Below, in pieces: positions 1,778 through 59,757 of a stretch of 64,000 nt of DNA. This DNA is from Alkalicoccobacillus plakortidis. GTDB taxonomy: Bacteria > Bacillota > Bacilli > Bacillales > Bacillaceae_D. The stretch is taken from the NCBI RefSeq assembly GCF_023703085.1, contig NZ_JAMQJY010000001.1, positions 2,046,001-2,110,000 of the forward strand, written 5' to 3'. Positions within the stretch are counted from its first letter, which is position 1. Each line of letters starts with the position of its first letter. The position numbers were made by a program, and so were the translations under genes. Below the pieces are notes generated by a model. That model did not search any database. It was not told where the DNA came from and saw only the letters and a program-made list of their open reading frames with translations.

Positions 1778-1799
1778 AATAAAAATGGTTATTTTTATT
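1778..1799. repeat. 22-bp palindrome bordering family A array, copy 1
   Basis: AATAAAAATG-N2-ATTTTTATT form; the right half has one change from the perfect copies. It is followed by TCCTTAT and then GACCTTTCTTGG, the same flank as at copy 2. Confidence 0.8.
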
Positions 1800-2177
1800 C
1801 CTTATATAATTAGACCTTTCTTGGTTTGCTGCGTGGGGGCTTGGTATTAGGTTTGCGCTCTTGGTAAGTACGGGGTAGTTCTTGGTTTTGGAGTGGAGCT
1901 CTTGCTTTGGGTCTAATCTAGCTTGGTATTGGGGTGGATTTCTTGCTTTAGTTCTGATCTAGCTTGATATTGGAGTGGAGCTCTTGCTTCAGCTCTCCTC
2001 CCGCTTGGTATGAGGGGGGCGCTCTTGGTTTTGACGCTCTGGCTCTTGCTATCTCTCGCCTTCTCTTGATGAAGCGTGTGCCTCTCTTGCTCTCCTCACC
2101 ATTCTCCTTGCTGCTCCAAGCTTCTTCTTGATAAGCAGTACTTCCTTCTTGCTTTTACCTTCAGTTCCAATGCAGTT

Positions 2178-2199
2178 AATAAAAATGGACATTTTTATT
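2178..2199. repeat. 22-bp palindrome, copy 2
   Basis: A perfect AATAAAAATG-GA-CATTTTTATT inverted repeat, preceded by CAATGCAGTT and followed by CCTTATTTC. It separates the two blocks of array locus 1. Confidence 0.85.
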
Positions 2200-2516
2200 C
2201 CTTATTTCAATTGACCTTTCTTGGTTTGGTGCGTGAGCTCTTGGTGAGTGAGGGGAGATCTTGGTATTTGAGTGGAGCTCTTGCTTTAGCTTTACTCCCG
2301 CTTGGTATTCGAGTGGAGCTCTTGCTTCGTCCCTTCTCCAAGCTTGGTATTAGGGGTGCGCTCTTGGTTTTGACGCTCTGGCTCTTGCTATCTCTTGCCT
2401 TTTCTTGATGAAACGTACGCAGCTCTGGCTGTTCTCGCCATTCTCCTTTATACTCCACGCTTCTTCTTGGTAAGCGGCACTTCCTTCTTGTTCTTACCCC
2501 AAGTTTCAATGCAGTA

Positions 2517-2538
2517 AATAAAAATGGACATTTTCATT
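2517..2538. repeat. 22-bp palindrome, copy 3
   Basis: AATAAAAATG-GA-CATTTTCATT, with one mismatch in the right arm, preceded by CAATGCAGTA. It marks the right end of array locus 1. Confidence 0.8.
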
Positions 2539-2631
2539 CCTTATGTTCATGGATTTTTCTTGCCAGGGCGCTTGGTATTGGCTCGAAGGCTTCGCTCCAC
2601 CCTGTCCATCCAATTAAATCCAATAAAATGG

Positions 2632-6334: not shown

Positions 6335-6354
6335 TTTGGATTCTACTGAAAAAG

Positions 6355-6379
6355 ACTGTCCGAGGAGGGCAGTTTTTTT
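6355..6379 (+). terminator. Intrinsic terminator of the ABC operon
   Basis: Stem ACTGTCC/GGGCAGT with a five-base loop, followed by seven T. Confidence 0.85.
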
Positions 6380-6419
6380 GTATGGGTATGAGGCGTTGGA
6401 TTCGTTTCTACACGCAAGA

Positions 6420-7225
6420 TGCCCATTACCACGCGCGAGAACCCTCTTTCCACACGCGGTGGCCTTTTCCTCTTGCTTGTTGGAGGATCTAGCTTGGTCC
6501 GATACCTGTTTTTCTTGATGCAGTTCTCTTTCCTCTTGGTAAGCAGCACATCCTTCTTGCTCTTACTTCAAATTTCAATGCAGTTAATAAAAATGGATAT
6601 TTTCATTCATTATTTAAGTTGAACTTTCTTGGTTTGTCACGATGGGGCTTGGTATGTGGGGGTGGCTCTTGCTTCTTCTGGCTCTTGGTGCTGAGGGTAA
6701 CTTCTTGCTTTCCTTCTTCTGCCTCTTGGTGCTGTGGGTGGCTTCTTGCTTTCTTCTTCTGCCTCTTGTGGGTGGCTTCTTGCTTTTCTTCTTCTGCCTC
6801 TTGGTGCTGTGGGTGCTTCTTGCTTTTCTTCTTCTACCTCTTGGTGCTGAGGGGATGTTCTTGGGTTTCTTCTTCTGGCTCTTGGTGCTGAGGCTGGATT
6901 CTTGGCTTTCTTCTTCTACCTCTTGGTGCTGAGGGTGACTTCTTGCTTTCCTTCTTCTGCCTCATGGTGCCGAGGGTGACTTCTTGCTTTCCTTCTTCTA
7001 CCTCTTGGTGCCGAGGGTGACTTCTTGCTTTCCTTCTTCTACCTCTTGGTGTTGAGGGTGACTTCTTGCTTTCCTTCTTCTACCTCTTGGTGTTGAGGGT
7101 GACTTCTTGCTTTTCTTCTTCTGCCTCTTGGTGTTCTAACTATTCTTCTTGCTCCTCCGAACTTCCTCTTGGTGAACCGCATATTCTTCTGGCTCTCACC
7201 GCCGCAGCCCAAAAATTCAAATGCC
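6420..7225. repeat. Family A 41-bp dimer array, locus 2
   Basis: The most regular family A array. From about 6640 to 7130 it repeats CTTGGTGCTGAGGGTGACTT (20 bp) plus a 21-bp half starting CTTGCTTTCC about a dozen times. Palindromes lie inside (6586) and at its right end (7230). It fills the space between two convergent genes. The long Leu/Ser/Trp-rich frames across it are translations of the repeat and have no plausible starts. Confidence 0.88.
6586..6607. repeat. 22-bp palindrome, copy 4
   Basis: AATAAAAATG-GA-TATTTTCATT, preceded by CAATGCAGTT and followed by a CTTTCTTGGTTTG flank as at copies 1 and 2. Confidence 0.8.
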
Positions 7226-7229
7226 TCTT

Positions 7230-7251
7230 AATAAAAATGTCCATTTTTATT
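7230..7251. repeat. 22-bp palindrome, copy 5
   Basis: A perfect AATAAAAATG-TC-CATTTTTATT inverted repeat, then CCTTATTTCCCTTGA. Right-hand border of array locus 2. Confidence 0.85.
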
Positions 7252-7326
7252 CCTTATTTCCCTTGATCTAGACTAGTTTAATACGTGCCCATTCTCCGCC
7301 AAAAATAAAAGACCAACGCACACGCG

Positions 7327-11701: not shown

Positions 11702-11757
11702 GAAAAGCCCGGAAGACTCCCGCACATTCCCATGTGCAAAATATCTCCCGGGCTTTT
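11702..11757 (-). terminator. Riboswitch-controlled terminator of ykkCD
   Basis: Reading on the minus strand, AAAAGCCCGGGAG pairs with CTTCCGGGCTTTT around an inner GCACAT/ATGTGC hairpin. The 5' arm overlaps the last conserved aptamer segment, as expected for a riboswitch that turns transcription on when ligand-bound. Confidence 0.85.
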
Positions 11758-11842
11758 ATCCCTCCGTGTCACAGCATAACGCTGTGCGCCCCCTCTCGGA
11801 CCAGACCAACCATAATAGCGGCTGCGGAACCCTAGGAAGCTT
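11741..11842 (-). ncRNA. Guanidine-I riboswitch (ykkC-yxkD motif)
   Basis: The minus strand shows, in order, the conserved segments CTAGGGTTCCG, GGTCTGGTCCGAGAG and ACACGGAGGGATAAAAGCCC that define the ykkC-yxkD guanidine aptamer, with a CACAGC/GCTGTG hairpin between the last two. It lies between a good sigma-A promoter and the ykkCD exporter genes. Guanidinium binding is expected to prevent the terminator at 11702-11757 and allow exporter expression (family knowledge). Confidence 0.94.
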
Positions 11843-11853
11843 TATATGAGCTT

Positions 11854-11889: not shown

Positions 11890-12900
11890 GGATGTGGTGG
11901 GGAGCGGCTGTTAGTGAGCGTAGGGGGGGCGGGAGGGGTCTTGGTGTTTTGTGCGGCTCTCTTGGTGGGGAGTGGCGGCTCTTGGTGTTTTGGGCTTCTT
12001 TCTTGGTGGGGAGCGCCGGGGCTTGGGGTTATGTGCTTCTCTCTTGATGGGGAGTGGTGGCTCTTGGTTACTTGTGCTTCTTTGTTGATGGGGAGTGGTA
12101 GCTCTTGGTTATTTGTGCGGCTCTCTGGGTAATGAGAGGCGGAGCTTGGTTGTTTGTGCTTCCCTCTTGGTGGCGAGCGCAGGCTCTTGCTGTTTTGTGC
12201 TTCTCTCTTGGTGGCGAGCGGTGCCTCTTGGTTACTTGTGCTTCTTTCTTGATGGGGAGTGGTGGCTCTTGCTGTTTTGTACTTCTCTCTTGGTGGGGAG
12301 CGCCAACTCTTGGTGTTTTGTGCTTCTCTCTTGATGGGGAGCGGGGGTTCTTGGTTACTTGTGCTTCTCTCTTGATGGGGAGCGCCGGCTCTTGGTTACC
12401 GATCCTTCTCTCTTGGTGCCGAGCAGCGGAGCTTGGTAACGCCCCCTTCTCTCTTGCTATCAAGCAACGGCTCTTGCTTAATCTTGGCACTATCTTGGTA
12501 TGAGTAAGTCTGCTCTTGCTCTTGGCGTTCAGTTCTTGGTTTCTTCACCACTCCTCTTGCTATCTCCCACAAAATTCAATCGATTTAATAAAAATGGAAA
12601 TTTTTATTCCTTATTTCCCTTGACCTTACTCAATTCGCTATAGGTAGTAGCTTTGAAGCTCTTGGTTTGTGGTTCTACCTCTTGGTGTCGAGCGGTGCCT
12701 CTTGCTTTCACCTTCCTTGTTCTTGATATCCTGCGGTACCTCTTGCTTAATCTAACCTCCGTCTTGGTCCAAAAGCATTTGCCCTTGCTATTAGCTACCT
12801 CCTCTTGGTGGACAGAGAACTTGTCTTGATTTTTCCCCCATTTCTCTTGCTATTGCTTTCTCTTTCTTAATACAGAACTCAACTTTCTTGCTAATCTACC
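11890..12900. repeat. Family A 41-bp dimer array, locus 3 (upstream of NERD gene 1)
   Basis: Over 1 kb of family A units. The 11930-12420 part alternates CTTGGTGGGGAGTGGCGGCT (20 bp) with a 21-bp half such as CTTGGTGTTTTGGGCTTCTT plus one base. A palindrome at 12587 splits it, and looser units with CTTGGT, CTTGCT and CTTGAT continue to about 12900. It lies between the ykkCD promoter and the NERD gene. The arginine-rich minus-strand frame and the plus-strand frames here are repeat translations, not genes. Confidence 0.88.
12587..12608. repeat. 22-bp palindrome, copy 6
   Basis: AATAAAAATG-GA-AATTTTTATT, then CCTTATTTCCCTTGACCTT. It sits inside array locus 3, about 400 bp upstream of the NERD gene. 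Confidence 0.8.
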
Positions 12901-12999
12901 ATTAACTCAGTCTCTAAAAAAACTAAGAATTAATTTCTGATTTTTAGAGGATTTTGTCTCTTTTCAAAGAATAGTTAGTAATCAAAAGGAGTTGATACA

Positions 13000-14004
13000 T
13001 TGCAGGTTGTCAAAGAACGGACTAGTCCACTGCGAATTGCACAATTGGAGGCTCTATTAAGAAGACTGCCAAGTGAACACGAAAAAGTTCCGATTATAAA
13101 AAAGGAACTAATGAAACGGCGTATTGGCTATCAAGGTGAGAAATCGTTAACTTATTATTTTAATTTAATTACGGATCCGAACACTTATTTGCTCCATGAC
13201 CTTCGACTTTTAGGGCCAACCGGCTATCATTTTCAGATGGATACAGTTCTTGTTACTCCATCTTTCATTGCGATTATTGAAATAAAGAATTACTCAGGGA
13301 CCATTTATTTTGATCCAGATACACACCAAGTCTTCCGCACATCCGACACGCACGATGATGAAATTCTCACCAATCCCCTCTCACAAATTCAAATTCAGAA
13401 AATGCAGCTAAAAGATTGGCTAGTGGAACATGATTGGCCTTTGCTACCAATTGTTAAGATGGTTATTTTTAGTGATCCCTCTACTAAGATTGTTTCGACA
13501 CCTACCAATCTAAAAACGATTAATCAGGTCACAACTGCTCCCGCATTTCTTCCAAAACTAAAAGCTCTACAAACCGCGCTTCCTAAAACTCACCTCACAA
13601 CATCAAGCCTACAAAAATTAACCCAGCAGCTTGCTAGTATGCATGTCCCTACAAGTTCAAATATTCTAAATGACTTTAAAATCGATCGTTCCTCAATTAT
13701 TTCAGGTGTTTATTGCCCATCTTGTGATGAGCCGACATTGATTCGTGGCATGATCATTGGAAAGTGGTTTTGCCAGAGCTGCGAAGTGTCGTCCAAACAT
13801 GCGCACATATTTGCACTTGAAGATTATTTTCTCTTATTGGATAAACATGCATCAAGCCACGAAATTCATCAATTTCTTCGGACTTCTACTAGGCAACAAG
13901 CCTATGATTTACTGAAGAACTTCCCATTAAATCGATTCGGCGCGTTTCGCTCCAGACGTTACGAGCTTCAATATCCTCTTCCATTAACAAAATTGACGCC
14001 ATAA
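13000..14004 (+). CDS. NERD nuclease-domain protein with zinc ribbon and HTH (paralogue 1, intact)
   Basis: 334 aa. A basic N-terminal helix precedes a NERD (nuclease-related) domain at about 40-160 with a PD-(D/E)xK-type core: Glu47 region GYQGEKS, Asp81 in YHFQMDTVLV and E94-I-K96 in IIEIKNYSG. A linker leads to a zinc ribbon (Cys239, Cys242, Cys258, Cys261) and a C-terminal winged-helix-like region (ASSHEIHQFLRTSTRQQAY then a basic strand) at about 283-325. Start is TTG at 13000 with AAGGAG 8 nt upstream. It sits between two family A arrays. Two paralogues occur in this window, each beside a different array family. Function unknown; sequence-specific binding of the repeats is my inference. 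Confidence 0.85.
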   Translation: MQVVKERTSPLRIAQLEALLRRLPSEHEKVPIIKKELMKRRIGYQGEKSLTYYFNLITDPNTYLLHDLRLLGPTGYHFQMDTVLVTPSFIAIIEIKNYSGTIYFDPDTHQVFRTSDTHDDEILTNPLSQIQIQKMQLKDWLVEHDWPLLPIVKMVIFSDPSTKIVSTPTNLKTINQVTTAPAFLPKLKALQTALPKTHLTTSSLQKLTQQLASMHVPTSSNILNDFKIDRSSIISGVYCPSCDEPTLIRGMIIGKWFCQSCEVSSKHAHIFALEDYFLLLDKHASSHEIHQFLRTSTRQQAYDLLKNFPLNRFGAFRSRRYELQYPLPLTKLTP

Positions 14005-14037
14005 TCTTTCAGAGTAAACAACTTGATAACAGGGGTA

Positions 14038-14365
14038 TTTTCTTGGTGTCACGCCTCTCTCCGTGCTAATCAACCTTTCTCTCTTGTTATCCTGCCTCTC
14101 CTCTTGGTACGTGGCTCACACTTCTTGCTACCCTGCCACTGTCCTTGTTAATCAACCAATCTTTCTTGCTATCCCGCTCCTCTCCTTGGTAATCAACTCA
14201 CACTTCTTGCTATCCAGCTTCCCCCTTGGTAAACTGCCTTTCTCTCTTGCTATCACGTACCTCCCCTTGATAATCAGCTCACACTTCTTGCTATCCCGCT
14301 CCCTCACCTTGATAATTAGCTCATCTCTCTTGCTATCCATCCTCTCCCCTTGATAATCCTGCTTT
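14038..14365. repeat. Family A array, locus 4 (downstream of NERD gene 1)
   Basis: About 16 units with a 20-21 bp period, beginning 34 bp after the NERD stop codon. CTTGCTATCC and CTTGGTAATC/CTTGATAATC halves alternate almost strictly. It ends about 25 bp short of the spoIIQ terminator, between convergent genes. Confidence 0.88.
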
Positions 14366-21199: not shown

Positions 21200-22185
21200 A
21201 TGATGACCCTAAAAGAACGAGTTATGCCTATAAAACTTCAACAATTAAGGGCTTTAGAAAAAAGATTAGGAAGATTGTCTGGCAAGATGAAGGACGATAT
21301 TGCGCTCTATGAAGCAGGATATCGAGGTGAACAGAATCTCGATTATCACCTAGGATTTTTAGGTGTTAATGAATTTGAGATCGTACATGACGTAAGGATA
21401 AGCAATGGTCGAGGAAACTATTTTCAAATAGACACACTCGTGCTGACCACTCAATTTTTTGTGATTCTAGAAGTGAAAAATATGGTCGGCCGCTTTGAAT
21501 TTAATGACGAGCTTAAGCAAATGGTACGCATTTGGAATGGTGAGGAGGTCTTAATGCAAAACCCTTTAAACCAAGTTCGTAGGCAACAAACTCAATTATC
21601 CGATTGGTTGCTAGATCGCGGATTCCCTCTCATGCCAATTGAGCAGCTAATAGTCTTCGCAAACCCCTCCACCATCGTGCACTCAACAGAAGCAGGAAGG
21701 CATACATTATCAAAAGTTGTCTATGCAGAAGGCGTTGTGCCTCGATTAGAAAAGCTGAAATCGAATTACGGAAAAGCGAAGTCCTATTTGGATAATGTGA
21801 AACTTCGAAAAGTTGCTGAGCAGCTCAAAGCAAGTCATTCCCCCTTTTAACCTCAATTTTAAAACTCTACCATCTCAAACCATCTCAATTGCAAAAAGGA
21901 GTCTACTGTCCCAGTTGTCGTACACCAAACATGGTACGTCGAGGCAGAAGTGGAAACTGGCACTGCCAATCATGTCCCATCACCTCTAAAACTGCACACG
22001 TACAAGCTTTGGAGGATTATTATTTGTTGATCAAGCCGACGATTAGCAGCGCGGAGTTGCGGGAGTTTTTGGGGATTGAATCCAGAGTTGTTGCGTATCA
22101 CCTACTTAATAAGTTAGACATTAAACGAACGCACAAGAATCGGCATTGCTACTATCACCTAACTTTCCCACTGAAGTTGAAGTAA
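21200..22185 (+). pseudogene. NERD nuclease–zinc ribbon–HTH protein (paralogue 2, frameshifted)
   Basis: One frame (21200-21850) encodes the NERD domain with GYRGEQNL, YFQIDTLVL and LEVKNMVG (the ExK). A second, to 22185, encodes zinc ribbon CPSC/CQSC and HTH SSAELREFLGIESRVVAYHLL. Read through the junction, the second frame also gives FPLLTSILKLYHLKPSQL, matching the linker of paralogue 1, so one base is missing near the C-run at 21838-21844. The repaired protein is about 328 aa. Start ATG follows AAGGAGGTG. This lesion is not of the GCTGG type, so it may be genuine decay. An array of family B follows 60 bp downstream. Confidence 0.78.
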
Positions 22186-22245: not shown

Positions 22246-22680
22246 CCATCGCTCCAGTTTTTTATCCTATCGTTCCAGTCGGCGGGCCATCTGCTCCAAT
22301 TTCTTACTCTATCGCTCCAGTCGGTGCTCCATCGCTCCAGTTTCTTACCCTATCGCTCCAGTCAGTGCTCCATCGCTCCAACTTCTTACTCTATCGCTCC
22401 AGTCAGTGGGCCATCGCTCCAATTTCTTACTCTATCGCTCCAGTCGGTGCTCCATCGCTCCAGTTTCTTACCCTATCGTTCCAGTCAGTGCTCCATCGCT
22501 CCAATTTCTTACCCTATCGCTCCAGTCAGTGCTCCATCGCTCCAACTTCTTACTCTATCGCTCCAGTCAGTGCTCCATCGCTCCAATTTCTTATCCTATC
22601 GCTCCAGTCAGTGCTCCATCGCTCCAATTTCTTATCCTATCGCTCCATTCGATGGCCCATCGCTCTAATTTCGTCCTCAC
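22246..22680. repeat. Family B 41-bp dimer array
   Basis: About 21 copies of core ATCGCTCCA with strict 20/21 alternation: ATCGCTCCAGTCAGTGCTCC (20 bp) and a 21-bp half beginning ATCGCTCCAATTTCTTAC. A few cores read ATCGTTCCA or ATCTGCTCCA. It begins shortly after NERD paralogue 2 and ends about 20 bp before the atpC terminator. Frames across it are repeat translations. Confidence 0.92.
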
Positions 22681-33224: not shown

Positions 33225-33570
33225 TTTTTTGGGGCGGAGTGGAGGTGGAGAAGTTCTTGGTAATGCGCGACGGCTCTTGGTGTGGCGCGGAAACTCTTGG
33301 TAAGAGGATCTGGCTTTTGGTGTGGCGGTGCCGTTCTTAGTAAATTGCTCTTTCCTCTTAGTTAAGATACATAAGTTCTTCGTTTTAGGTCCCTGCTCTT
33401 GGTTATAAGTGCTTCTCTCTTGGTATCGCACCCTACCTCTTGCTATGTCATCCGTCCTTCTTGATCCGGTGCTCATTCCGCTTGCTATCGTCCTCCGGCT
33501 CTGGCTAAAATTCCATATTGTCTTGATCCCACCATTATTCTTCTTGCCAAATCCCCAAACCTTCAATCTG
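33225..33570. repeat. Family A array, locus 6
   Basis: About 16 loose units with cores CTTGGT, CTTGCT and variants (CTTAGT, CTTGAT) at 20-21 bp spacing, between the upp start and the glyA terminator. More degenerate than loci 2-4. A minus-strand Arg-rich frame is a repeat translation. Confidence 0.8.
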
Positions 33571-33571
33571 T

Positions 33572-33593
33572 TATAAAAATGGGCATTTTTATT
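33572..33593. repeat. 22-bp palindrome, copy 7
   Basis: TATAAAAATG-GG-CATTTTTATT followed by CCTTATTTC, at the glyA-side border of array locus 6. Confidence 0.8.
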
Positions 33594-33614
33594 CCTTATT
33601 TCTTTTACTCTTTA

Positions 33615-38565: not shown

Positions 38566-38997
38566 GAGGTGGGGTGGAGCACGACACTTTAGTTCCGCTC
38601 ATGGATCTCTGCTTTCCCCTCATGGCGGCCTGGTTCCGCTCATTGACCTCCGCTTTTCGCTCATGGCGGCTCGGTTCCGCTCATGGATCTCTGTTTTTCG
38701 CTCATGGCGACCTGGTTCCGCTCATACATCTCCACTTTTCGCTCATGGCGACCTGGTTCCGCTCATACATCTCCACTTTTCGCTCATGGCGACCTGGTTC
38801 CGCTCATACATCTCCACTTTTCGCTCATGGCGACCTGGTTCCGCTCATACATCTCCACTTTTCGCTCATGGCGACCTGGTTCCGCTCATTGGTCTTCGCT
38901 TTTCGCTCATGACGGCCTGACTCCGCTCATGAATCTCCACTTTCCGCTCATGGCGGCCTCGTTACGCTCATTGACCTCCACTTTCCGCTCATAGGCC
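38566..38997. repeat. Family C 41-bp dimer array
   Basis: About 20 units. The dimer is a 21-bp half starting GTTCCGCTCATACATCTCC and a 20-bp half TTTTCGCTCATGGCGACCTG; four consecutive central dimers are identical, the outer ones diverge, so expansion is recent in the middle. Lies between two terminator-like hairpins. No NERD gene is next to it. The Arg/Ser-rich frames in all registers are repeat translations. Confidence 0.92.
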
Positions 38998-44744: not shown

Positions 44745-45112
44745 ATCTACTTCTTGATAACTCCCCTTCTCTCTTGGTATTCCACAAACGTTCTTGCTAT
44801 CTCGGCACTGTTCTTGCTACGTGTAGTTTCCGCTTGGTATCAGGTTCTGCTTCTTGCCAAATCCCCGCTCCCCCTTGCTTACCCCCACATTTCTCTTACT
44901 AAAATTGTCTGGCTCTTGGTTTTTTCCTTTTTCCGCTTAGTATCAGAGTCCACTTCTTGCCAAGCCCCCCATCCGTCTTGCTTTCTCCCAGTTTTCTCTT
45001 GCTATCATGCTTTGGTTCTTGATGTTTCCCTTATGCCGCTTGGTAAAAGGCTCTGCTTCTTGCTAAGTCCCCGATCCGTCTTGCTTTTCTCCCGCTTTAC
45101 GCTCTTCCACCA
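44745..45112. repeat. Family A array, locus 5
   Basis: About 17 units with clean 20-21 bp spacing: CTTGATAACTCC, CTTGGTATTCC, CTTGCTATCTC, CTTGCTACGTG, CTTGGTATCAGG and so on, with variants CTTAGT, CTTACT and CTTGCC. Sits between the membrane trio and the ptsG terminator. No palindrome copy and no NERD gene here. Confidence 0.85.
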
Positions 45113-58319: not shown

Positions 58320-58490
58320 GTGTGACTGAGGATTTTCGAGCATGAACACTCCATTTTCGCGCACATAATAAGATTTTTCGAGCATTTTCTGAAATTTTGA
58401 GCCGTCCAGCATTATTTACGCGCAGAAGGCCTCTTTTTTTGAGCATTATTGGATTTTTTGAGCATAGGTTAAGAATTTTTGAGCATTCCG
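58320..58490. repeat. Family D array, part 1 (overlaps the 3' end of NERD paralogue 3)
   Basis: About eight units with core TTTTTGAGCAT or TTTTCGCGCAC spaced about 20 bp. The last units form the terminal codons of NERD paralogue 3 (minus strand ATGCTCAAAAATTC then TAA). It fills the whole gap between ywjG and that gene. Confidence 0.85.
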
Positions 58491-59389
58491 CTCCATTCAT
58501 TAAGCATTCGATAAGCAGTATGTCTGGATTCGATGAGAAGAAATTCACGCGCCTCTTTATTCGTGAGCGATTTGTCCATTATGACGGAGAACTCTTCTAA
58601 TGCTTGGAGATGAGCTTTTTTTGAGAAACGAAAACAGTGAGCACAGTACAAGCTTCCATTTTTTTCAGTACGAGTCATAAATGGCCTGTTGCAAAATGGA
58701 CAATCCACACCTTTTCTAATATCTACGTAATTAAGCTTATAAGTTTGAAGGACAGATGGCTGATCTGGAAGATGTGACTGGCAAAGAAAATGTGCCAATT
58801 TAATTAGTTGATCGGATGTCATGGAGTTTTTATTGGAGGAAGTTTGGAAGTTTTCAAGCTTTTCCGGGAGAGCCTCAGCACGGATAACGGAGTTGGGTAA
58901 TGGATTATGATCTGTCTCGATAATAGTTGTAGGATTTGTGAAAGCTACAATCGTTTTTATGGGGATGGAGGGGAAGTTTTGATTGAGGAAAAAATGCTGC
59001 AGCTGAAGTCGTTGCCTTCGAACTTGAATCAGAGGGTTGGGCAAGCTTTCTACAACATCATTCAGTTTTCTTAACATTTGACTAGCTGAATTCTCAAAAC
59101 GAATACTACCTGCAAGGTTCTTCACCTCAATAATTCCAATAAACTGTGGGCACAAAATTAACGTATCTATTTGAAAAAAAGTCTGGTTAATCCCTCGAAG
59201 ACGCAAATCATGCATTAGAAGAAAATCATCATTCAGAAACTGATAGTAATAATCTAATGATTGCTCTCCCTGGTACCCAAGCTCTCTTTTCATGAGATCC
59301 AAATGAACCTTCTGATAAGCCCGGTGTTTTGAATCTAACCTCGCGTGTAGTGCACGAAGCTGAATTAATCTTTTAGGAATTCTCTCTTT
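58469..59389 (-). pseudogene. NERD nuclease–zinc ribbon–HTH protein (paralogue 3, probably damaged at both ends)
   Basis: The NERD core (GYQGEQSLDYY, TFFQIDTLIL, IEVKNLAG) and zinc ribbon CPFC/CAHC are intact. The C-terminus stops at MLNEWSGMLKNS, about 20 residues short of the other paralogues: array D replaces the last strand of the HTH region. At the 5' end, homology (RIPKRLIQLRALHARLDSKH) continues upstream of the first ATG (59302) to about 59389 without a start codon; a good AGGAGGTG site follows further upstream, out of frame unless one A is added to an A-run. So start and end both look lesioned. Without repair, translation could begin at 59302 (277 aa). Confidence 0.7.
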
Positions 59390-59459
59390 TTATAAATTTT
59401 TATGATGTTGCACCTCCTGTAGATAGTCAATTCATTTTCGATAAACGTATACTAATATC

Positions 59460-59757
59460 CTTCTAGAATCTATCATTTTTTGAGCCCTTCTGTTTTTTTG
59501 CGAAAATTTGGGCTTTCCGCTCACCTGATCATATTTTTGAGCACCTCTACTCGTTTTTTGAGCATTTTCATTTTTTTTGAGCATACTCGTTAGTTTTCCG
59601 AGCACGATGGTTCTATTTTTGCGCATTTTTGGGATTTTCGCGCACCTCACTCATGTTTTTGAGCATTCCTACTCGTTTTTTGAGCATTTTCATTTTTGGG
59701 GCATACGCGTTAGTTTTCCGCGCACCTCCCTCACATTTTTCTGAGCATTCACACCCT
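59460..59757. repeat. Family D array, part 2
   Basis: About 14 units: TTTTTGAGCATTCCTACTCG (21-bp half) and TTTTTGAGCATTTTCATTTT (20 bp), with variant cores TTTTCGCGCAC and TTTCCGCTCAC. Lies between NERD paralogue 3 and the pyrG terminator. The variant TTTCCGCTCAC links family D to family C. Confidence 0.9.

Follow-up and report, generated by a model that had tools for sequence, protein, structure and literature searches.

In the stretch of Alkalicoccobacillus plakortidis DNA analysed here (64,000 nucleotides, referred to as the window), an intact gene with a TTG start was observed at positions 13000..14004 of the plus strand, with arrays of a repeat, family A, on both of its sides. The 334-aa product was examined by means of the ORF list, Pfam, an alignment, and structure prediction. 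In the Pfam profile search, the NERD domain (PF08378) reached 65.1 bits against a curated cut-off of 22.1; the only further match was a sub-threshold zinc model, and a transposase model was absent. E47, D81, and K96, as well as G43, Y44, and G46, are invariant in the 49 aligned relatives, and E94 is kept in at least 90% of them. Both the E...D...ExK active site and the fold of the PD-(D/E)XK type were found in the protein. The zinc-ribbon cysteines C258 and C261 are invariant, and C239 and C242 are kept in at least 90% of the same 49 relatives. The C-terminus is a predicted winged HTH (wHTH) with three helices and a beta wing. The initial annotation, which had described an intact 334-aa protein with D81, E94, and K96, four cysteines, and a C-terminal HTH, thus holds in all of these analyses. 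No match at E ≤ 0.001 was obtained with Foldseek against the PDB, and a search of solved structures by sequence returned weak zinc-ribbon matches and nothing else. By homology and prediction, the family A protein is a NERD protein of the PD-(D/E)XK type that also carries a zinc ribbon and a putative winged helix. Database names within the family are "nuclease-related domain-containing protein," "NERD nuclease," and "hypothetical protein." NERD was reportedly named as a domain in 2004 by Grynberg and Godzik. An excerpt of one paper states that the NERD protein of pXO1 was shown to be a nuclease, citing that 2004 paper (PMC12567373), and a passage of a 2022 paper describes NERD function as being without earlier experimental study (PMC9040797).

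The upstream family A array occupies 11939..12560 of the plus strand, where CTTGNT recurs every 20/21 bp. A second motif within the A array, the box AAAAATGNNNATTTTTNTTCCTTA, was found by motif search at 12590..12613 (plus strand), and a second block beside the gene, recognised by core spacing, lies at about 12655..12900 (plus strand). Downstream of the gene, CTTGNT again recurs every 20/21 bp at 14020..14358 (plus strand). A guanidine-I riboswitch, of a class that frequently controls SMR-type exporters, is situated beside the upstream array at 11743-11846 on the minus strand, ahead of two small minus-strand ORFs. The repeat had initially been described as 41 bp long. The repeat is real, but the period is 20.5 bp per core, so that 41 bp correspond to two cores. 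Family A had also been claimed at four further loci of the window without a gene, and all four were recovered on the plus strand: 1781..2550 (cores 1805-2550, boxes at 1781, 2181, and 2520), 6475..7256 (cores about 6475-7130, boxes at 6589 and 7233), 33256..33598 (cores 33256-33560, box at 33575), and 44753..45100. In all three relatives of the genus examined (G001, G002, and G003), the first, third, and fourth of these sites also carry an A array, while the second carries a different family, with F-like arrays. This second site is an intergenic stretch at 6335-7299 of the window, corresponding to the same site in L124, L240, L242, and L243, and its left edge holds remnants resembling a further family (ACACGCAAGA). 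Together with the box at 12590, the box has seven copies in the window, where 0 were expected, and 24 copies in 1.95 Mb of partly overlapping stretches from the genus. At least nine same-strand A cores are present within 300 bp of 23 of the 24 boxes, and two such cores within 300 bp of the remaining one. The box consists of a palindrome followed by ATTCCTTA; it is located within and at the ends of A arrays, in the same orientation as the cores. Phased triples of the A core number 468 in the window's genome (G000) versus 0 for the reversed pattern. In four relatives of the genus (G001-G004), there are 170 to 1028, and the reversed control gives 0 to 3 across all five genomes. A chance origin of the phased A pattern is excluded.

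Three further families are represented in the window. A family B gene, split over two frames, is found at 21200..22176 (plus strand) from ORFs and homology, and the adjoining B array, with the core ATCGCTCCA, at 22246..22672 (plus strand). A family D gene, recognised in the same way at 58469..59392 on the minus strand, has a frame that stops in the HTH ahead of the wing, and it adjoins a D array (TGCTCAAAAA in gene sense) at 59507..59749 (minus strand). The initial annotation was correct in placing two paralogues of the window each beside a different array family; that both genes are damaged was absent from it. A gene-less family C array (TTCCGCTCATGG) is present at 38592..38992 (plus strand). 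A NERD search of the window's genome gave eight matches, of which seven belong to the array-linked family, and each of these stands beside an array that has a unit of its own. Four of the seven are damaged, namely the B and D genes of the window, one on contig C2 without the HTH, and one on C6. The damaged genes are therefore dispensable in this genome, since the arrays persist. Contig C2 also carries an inverted duplication of 3.46 kb with 98.5% identity (L120 1-3462 and L123 9928-13398); one copy ends within a NERD gene, leaving a C-terminal fragment, and one copy lies at the contig end. In the stretches examined from G000 to G004, including only one of six G004 matches, an array was found beside 25/26 NERD genes or fragments, the single miss being C2:64071 of G000.

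The array-linked NERD family is, from homology, present in many Bacillus-type bacteria. When a chain of four or more phased cores, no farther than 600 bp from the gene on one or both sides, was required, 73/80 relatives qualified; such chains were present in 31/1718 control segments lying more than 2.5 kb from the gene, and some of these 31 positives are dispersed arrays themselves. The 80 relatives, from named genomes, are the best of 96 that were confirmed; by title, almost all are Bacillales, with about six from the window's genus, and the seven counted as misses have no chain of four (L034, L045, L046, L056, L071, L073, and L085). Autocorrelation in 500-bp bins was positive in 61/158 adjacent versus 30/2396 distant bins, and at control lags in 1/158 versus 14/2396. 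Among a further 21 genes on contigs outside the first set, 19 have an array in their 800-bp flanks, the two misses being G027 C1:1989822 and G059 C1:2135274. On the other hand, phased arrays were found beside 0/20 genes (L296-L315) of a sister NERD-zinc-HTH family of the same layout, chosen among lower-scoring matches in the same genomes (E 4e-30 to 2e-22). The association is therefore limited to one clade and does not extend to NERD genes at large. A lack of neighbourhood association genome-wide had been set beforehand as refuting the link between gene and repeat; the association was found in 73/80, 25/26, and 19/21 cases. Core gaps of 20 bp (380) and 21 bp (474) predominate, with gaps of 19-22 and 40-43 allowed. 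Upstream flanks hold four to six cores per array in 46/80 cases, and in Alkalicoccobacillus there are often 10-30. In L278, L277, L075, and L063, the two arrays that flank the gene are mutually inverted, not direct.

Cores vary between loci, and related proteins carry related cores. For 93 non-redundant loci, the Mantel correlation was 0.404 (permutation standard deviation 0.033), a value reached in 0/2000 permutations, and when restricted to pairs below 50% identity it was 0.19 (1/2000 permutations). The initial annotation had asked whether each paralogue is paired with one core family across the genome and its relatives, and the core table ordered by the protein tree agrees with this. To locate the residues concerned, 285 columns of the protein alignment were scanned for shared residue versus shared core, with correction for overall identity. 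The two highest columns of the 285 were residue 298, which opens the recognition helix, and residue 317 in the wing, while 299 ranked fourth and 318 ninth. Without the window's genus, 316, 298, and 317 take ranks 1-3 and 299 drops to rank 40. The corrected scans also rank columns outside the wHTH, such as 209, 122, and 138, with 209 and several others in the top ten. In the uncorrected analysis of mutual information between residue and core, residue 298 with core position 7 formed the top pair (z 9.2). We relied on the corrected scan, because many pairs outside the wHTH score 6-7 in the uncorrected analysis and several residues, e.g., 108, exceed 298 in summed score. Moreover, gene-sense cores tend to a common orientation across the family, with alignment scores of 119.3-120.3, whereas 20 trials with randomised orientation averaged 107.0 and did not exceed 113.0 (20 random starts each for the real and the randomised sets). 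From these comparisons of sequence, we regard it as settled that proteins and arrays form matched pairs, and the winged helix is strongly indicated as the reader of the core. The earlier idea that the HTH reads the core of its own family gains from the column scans, in which residues 298 and 317 make the wHTH the likely reader. Each NERD paralogue appears to recognise its own repeat clusters, both beside its gene and across the chromosome. Taken as a whole, the interpretation given in the initial annotation is supported in part.

In G003, regular sampling of 31% of the genome, as 60 stretches of 20 kb, yielded 22 TRF rows, 13 of which were judged phased arrays; these carry the cores of that genome's NERD genes and of two families, G and H, that match none of its five genes. 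Family G lies at 1049979, 3251445, and 3432789 and family H at 398643 and 3505632 of G003, and genes with similar cores occur in sister species. A core pattern recovered 22 arrays in Neobacillus soli; under the strict pattern 15 have five cores, four have four, and three have three; a shorter seed gave five cores in 13/22. The N. soli arrays are close to a standard size. NERD genes stand beside arrays of two of the three N. soli core families in the stretches examined. For the cores searched, dispersed arrays were few in some other genomes: two places in G017, one in G020, and one match each in G063 and G066. The cores seem to be constrained. In one N. soli family, core columns 10-12, which no search pattern fixes, have the majority base in 114/117 cases versus 111/273 in spacer columns 14-20, core columns fixed by the pattern being excluded as evidence. 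Between species, orthologous arrays have identities of 487/588 in cores versus 787/1447 in spacers, the gene-less s33k array 44/45 versus 55/79, and the gene-less A3 array 126/135 versus 183/289, although alignments of low-identity arrays may favour the cores. The higher conservation of cores than of spacers looks like selection on binding sites, unlike recent copying.

The arrays of G003 are placed in gaps between genes, with 0/36 array loci inside an ORF by a simple ORF rule. In N. soli, 3/22 arrays overlap small ORF calls of 81-92 aa, which we take for spurious. The G003 contig begins at dnaA, with the turn of the GC skew at about 1.85 Mb; the A core runs against the fork at 24/29 loci. These 29 loci derive from the first 100 matches listed of 170 (complete only to 3327486) together with nine loci from other stretches, unselected for orientation; loci less than 3 kb apart were joined manually, and a cluster at 1266176 with a strict 42-bp period, maybe coding, was left out. 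Among the matches listed, which are incomplete for the left arm, the density of A arrays seems higher in the half nearer the origin than towards the terminus. As for the other families of G003, E, F, B, and H run against the fork in 10/10 cases, D runs with it in 4/4, and G is mixed, with 2/3 running with the fork. At tandem-gene sites, the array is against the fork whichever direction the genes take in 14/17 cases; of the three that deviate, two belong to family D. The arrays of G003 are thus mostly oriented by replication direction, not by gene direction. In G038, a genome belonging to another family, 7/9 loci of one core have a common orientation with respect to the fork if the terminus is assumed at mid-chromosome, and in N. 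soli the array is on the leading strand, by the sign of the local GC skew, in 14/20 stretches (4/8 in one family). The polarity of arrays relative to replication is evident within the home genus, whereas outside it there is no more than a suggestion of it.

We hypothesize that each NERD-zinc ribbon-wHTH paralogue uses its winged helix to bind a core about 8-13 bp long. Because the cores recur every two helical turns (20-21 bp), several protein molecules would be aligned on one face of the DNA. The sites would be the arrays flanking the genes and the gene-less arrays over the chromosome, whose cores selection would keep, and the PD-(D/E)XK domain, whose catalytic residues are conserved, would thereby be concentrated at intergenic array sites. 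Sequence comparison supports the pairing, the phasing, the core-reading residues, the core constraint, and, in one genus, the orientation by replication. We infer that the protein physically binds the sites, assembles there in a filament-like manner, acts on them as a nuclease, and has a maintenance role; nuclease action at the arrays is suggested because the active site is conserved. The chromosomal and intergenic location of the sites, the selection on them, and their orientation by the fork lead us to favour, as a guess, replication-linked chromosome maintenance, e.g., the handling of DNA structures or the marking of sites at fork passage. A selected chromosomal nuclease-array system in which each paralogue reads its own arrays is, in our judgement, the probable reading. 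Points that count against it are the differences between array families in direction relative to the fork, the weak sign of replication polarity outside the genus, the damaged NERD genes of the window's genome, the scarcity of dispersed arrays in some genomes, and the ranking of columns outside the wHTH. A more far-reaching version is put forward tentatively and with clearly less confidence: several orthogonal nuclease-satellite pairs per genome may constitute a new chromosome-site system, reading phased, replication-oriented arrays that would designate chosen intergenic sites where processing linked to forks or recombination takes place; protein and array would co-evolve, much as in eukaryotic centromere or hotspot-reader systems.

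The main rival, which we consider unlikely, is a selfish gene-repeat system similar to RAYT/REP, in which the nuclease would aid the copying and expansion of arrays, genes would decay, and orphan arrays would remain. The several parallel families per genome, the orphan arrays, the decayed NERD genes, and an array orientation tied to replication would all suit it. So would the occurrence of different families at one conserved site and of arrays present or absent at the same site, since the family C array of the window is missing in G001, G002, and G003 and the B array of G000 is missing in G003. However, no target-site duplication was seen at these two sites, where the alignments are diverged, and cores are retained across arrays whose spacers vary, including the constrained cores of orthologous orphan arrays. 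The compared NERD loci are also syntenic across the genus, and no relatives of the family were found in the plasmid, phage, or viral collections searched. The NERD genes diverge faster than their neighbours, with a nucleotide identity within the genus of about 66-71% for the former versus about 76-92% for the latter.

Still more doubtful is a transcription regulator with a structural nuclease fold and arrays that serve as operators of a regulon. Arrays often lie immediately upstream of the NERD gene and the wHTH fold is common among repressors, but invariant catalytic residues are not what this predicts, and the G003 arrays are enriched between convergent genes (12/34 versus 63/499 intergenic gaps, Fisher p 0.001), with 5/34 versus 125/499 between divergent ones. 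A defence function, with the nuclease directed against foreign DNA and the arrays as a store, decoy, or self-mark, seems quite improbable: the NERD part weakly matches the PglW and MAD6 models of defence proteins, yet three members gave no good model match in PADLOC (best E 0.0022), and both the synteny within the genus and the absence from the plasmids, phages, and viral contigs searched speak against it. Neutral minisatellites that lie near NERD genes by accident could be imagined from the large tandem arrays of Alkalicoccobacillus, which contain higher-order repeats, and this explanation was rejected as scarcely credible given the bin association, an enrichment confined to one gene family (73/80 versus 31/1718 in controls and 0/20 in the sister family), the residue-core covariation, and the core constraint.

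With the selected nuclease-array system as the preferred reading, one large NERD clade gains a concrete predicted DNA target, predicted base-reading residues, and chromosomal sites. It would open the study of selected satellite-like arrays in bacteria and of how reader and repeat stay matched as paralogues multiply, and the cognate protein-array pairs, five in one genome, are potential DNA-binding tools. In the open-licence literature, judged by titles and the openings of abstracts, no description of a NERD gene-array pairing was found.

In RAYT (TnpA-REP) systems, a single-copy chromosomal gene has its own dispersed family of intergenic repeats, with several families per genome; the enzyme is a Y1 (HUH) transposase, and the REP repeats are short palindromes, often paired. 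The likeness drawn in the initial annotation stands for the layout of gene, repeat, and orphan, as there is one chromosomal gene per dispersed repeat family and some families are arrays for which no gene was found. It does not extend to the enzyme, a PD-(D/E)XK-type nuclease with a wHTH, nor to the repeats, which are direct, helically phased, and in one orientation per array, with spacers unrelated between arrays; gene-less arrays, moreover, show core constraint more than recent copying. Iteron-Rep systems and centromere-binding proteins (ParR, TubR, and AspA) differ from the NERD system, which is chromosomal and has many sites and a nuclease domain. CRISPR arrays have long identical repeats with unique spacers of roughly repeat length, whereas here the core is about 8-13 bp with a period of 20-21 bp. 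In the portions concerned, one paper describes CRISPR-like repeat arrays whose spacers are hypervariable and which lie next to nuclease-type genes of other kinds; its sole mention of NERD, as one of several putative auxiliary genes of CRISPR, is in a figure legend (PMC10910872). SmdA of Staphylococcus aureus is described in an excerpt as a NERD-domain membrane protein for cell shape, which according to its authors is without several conserved NERD residues (PMC9040797). The domain (PF08378) is common to SmdA and other NERD proteins, whereas the array-linked family keeps the catalytic residues and arrays occur in one clade only. In PRDM9 and centromere-type systems, a DNA reader and its satellite co-evolve. 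The NERD system is bacterial and built from other domains, but resembles them in that, from one paralogue to another, the residues of the reader change along with the cognate repeats.
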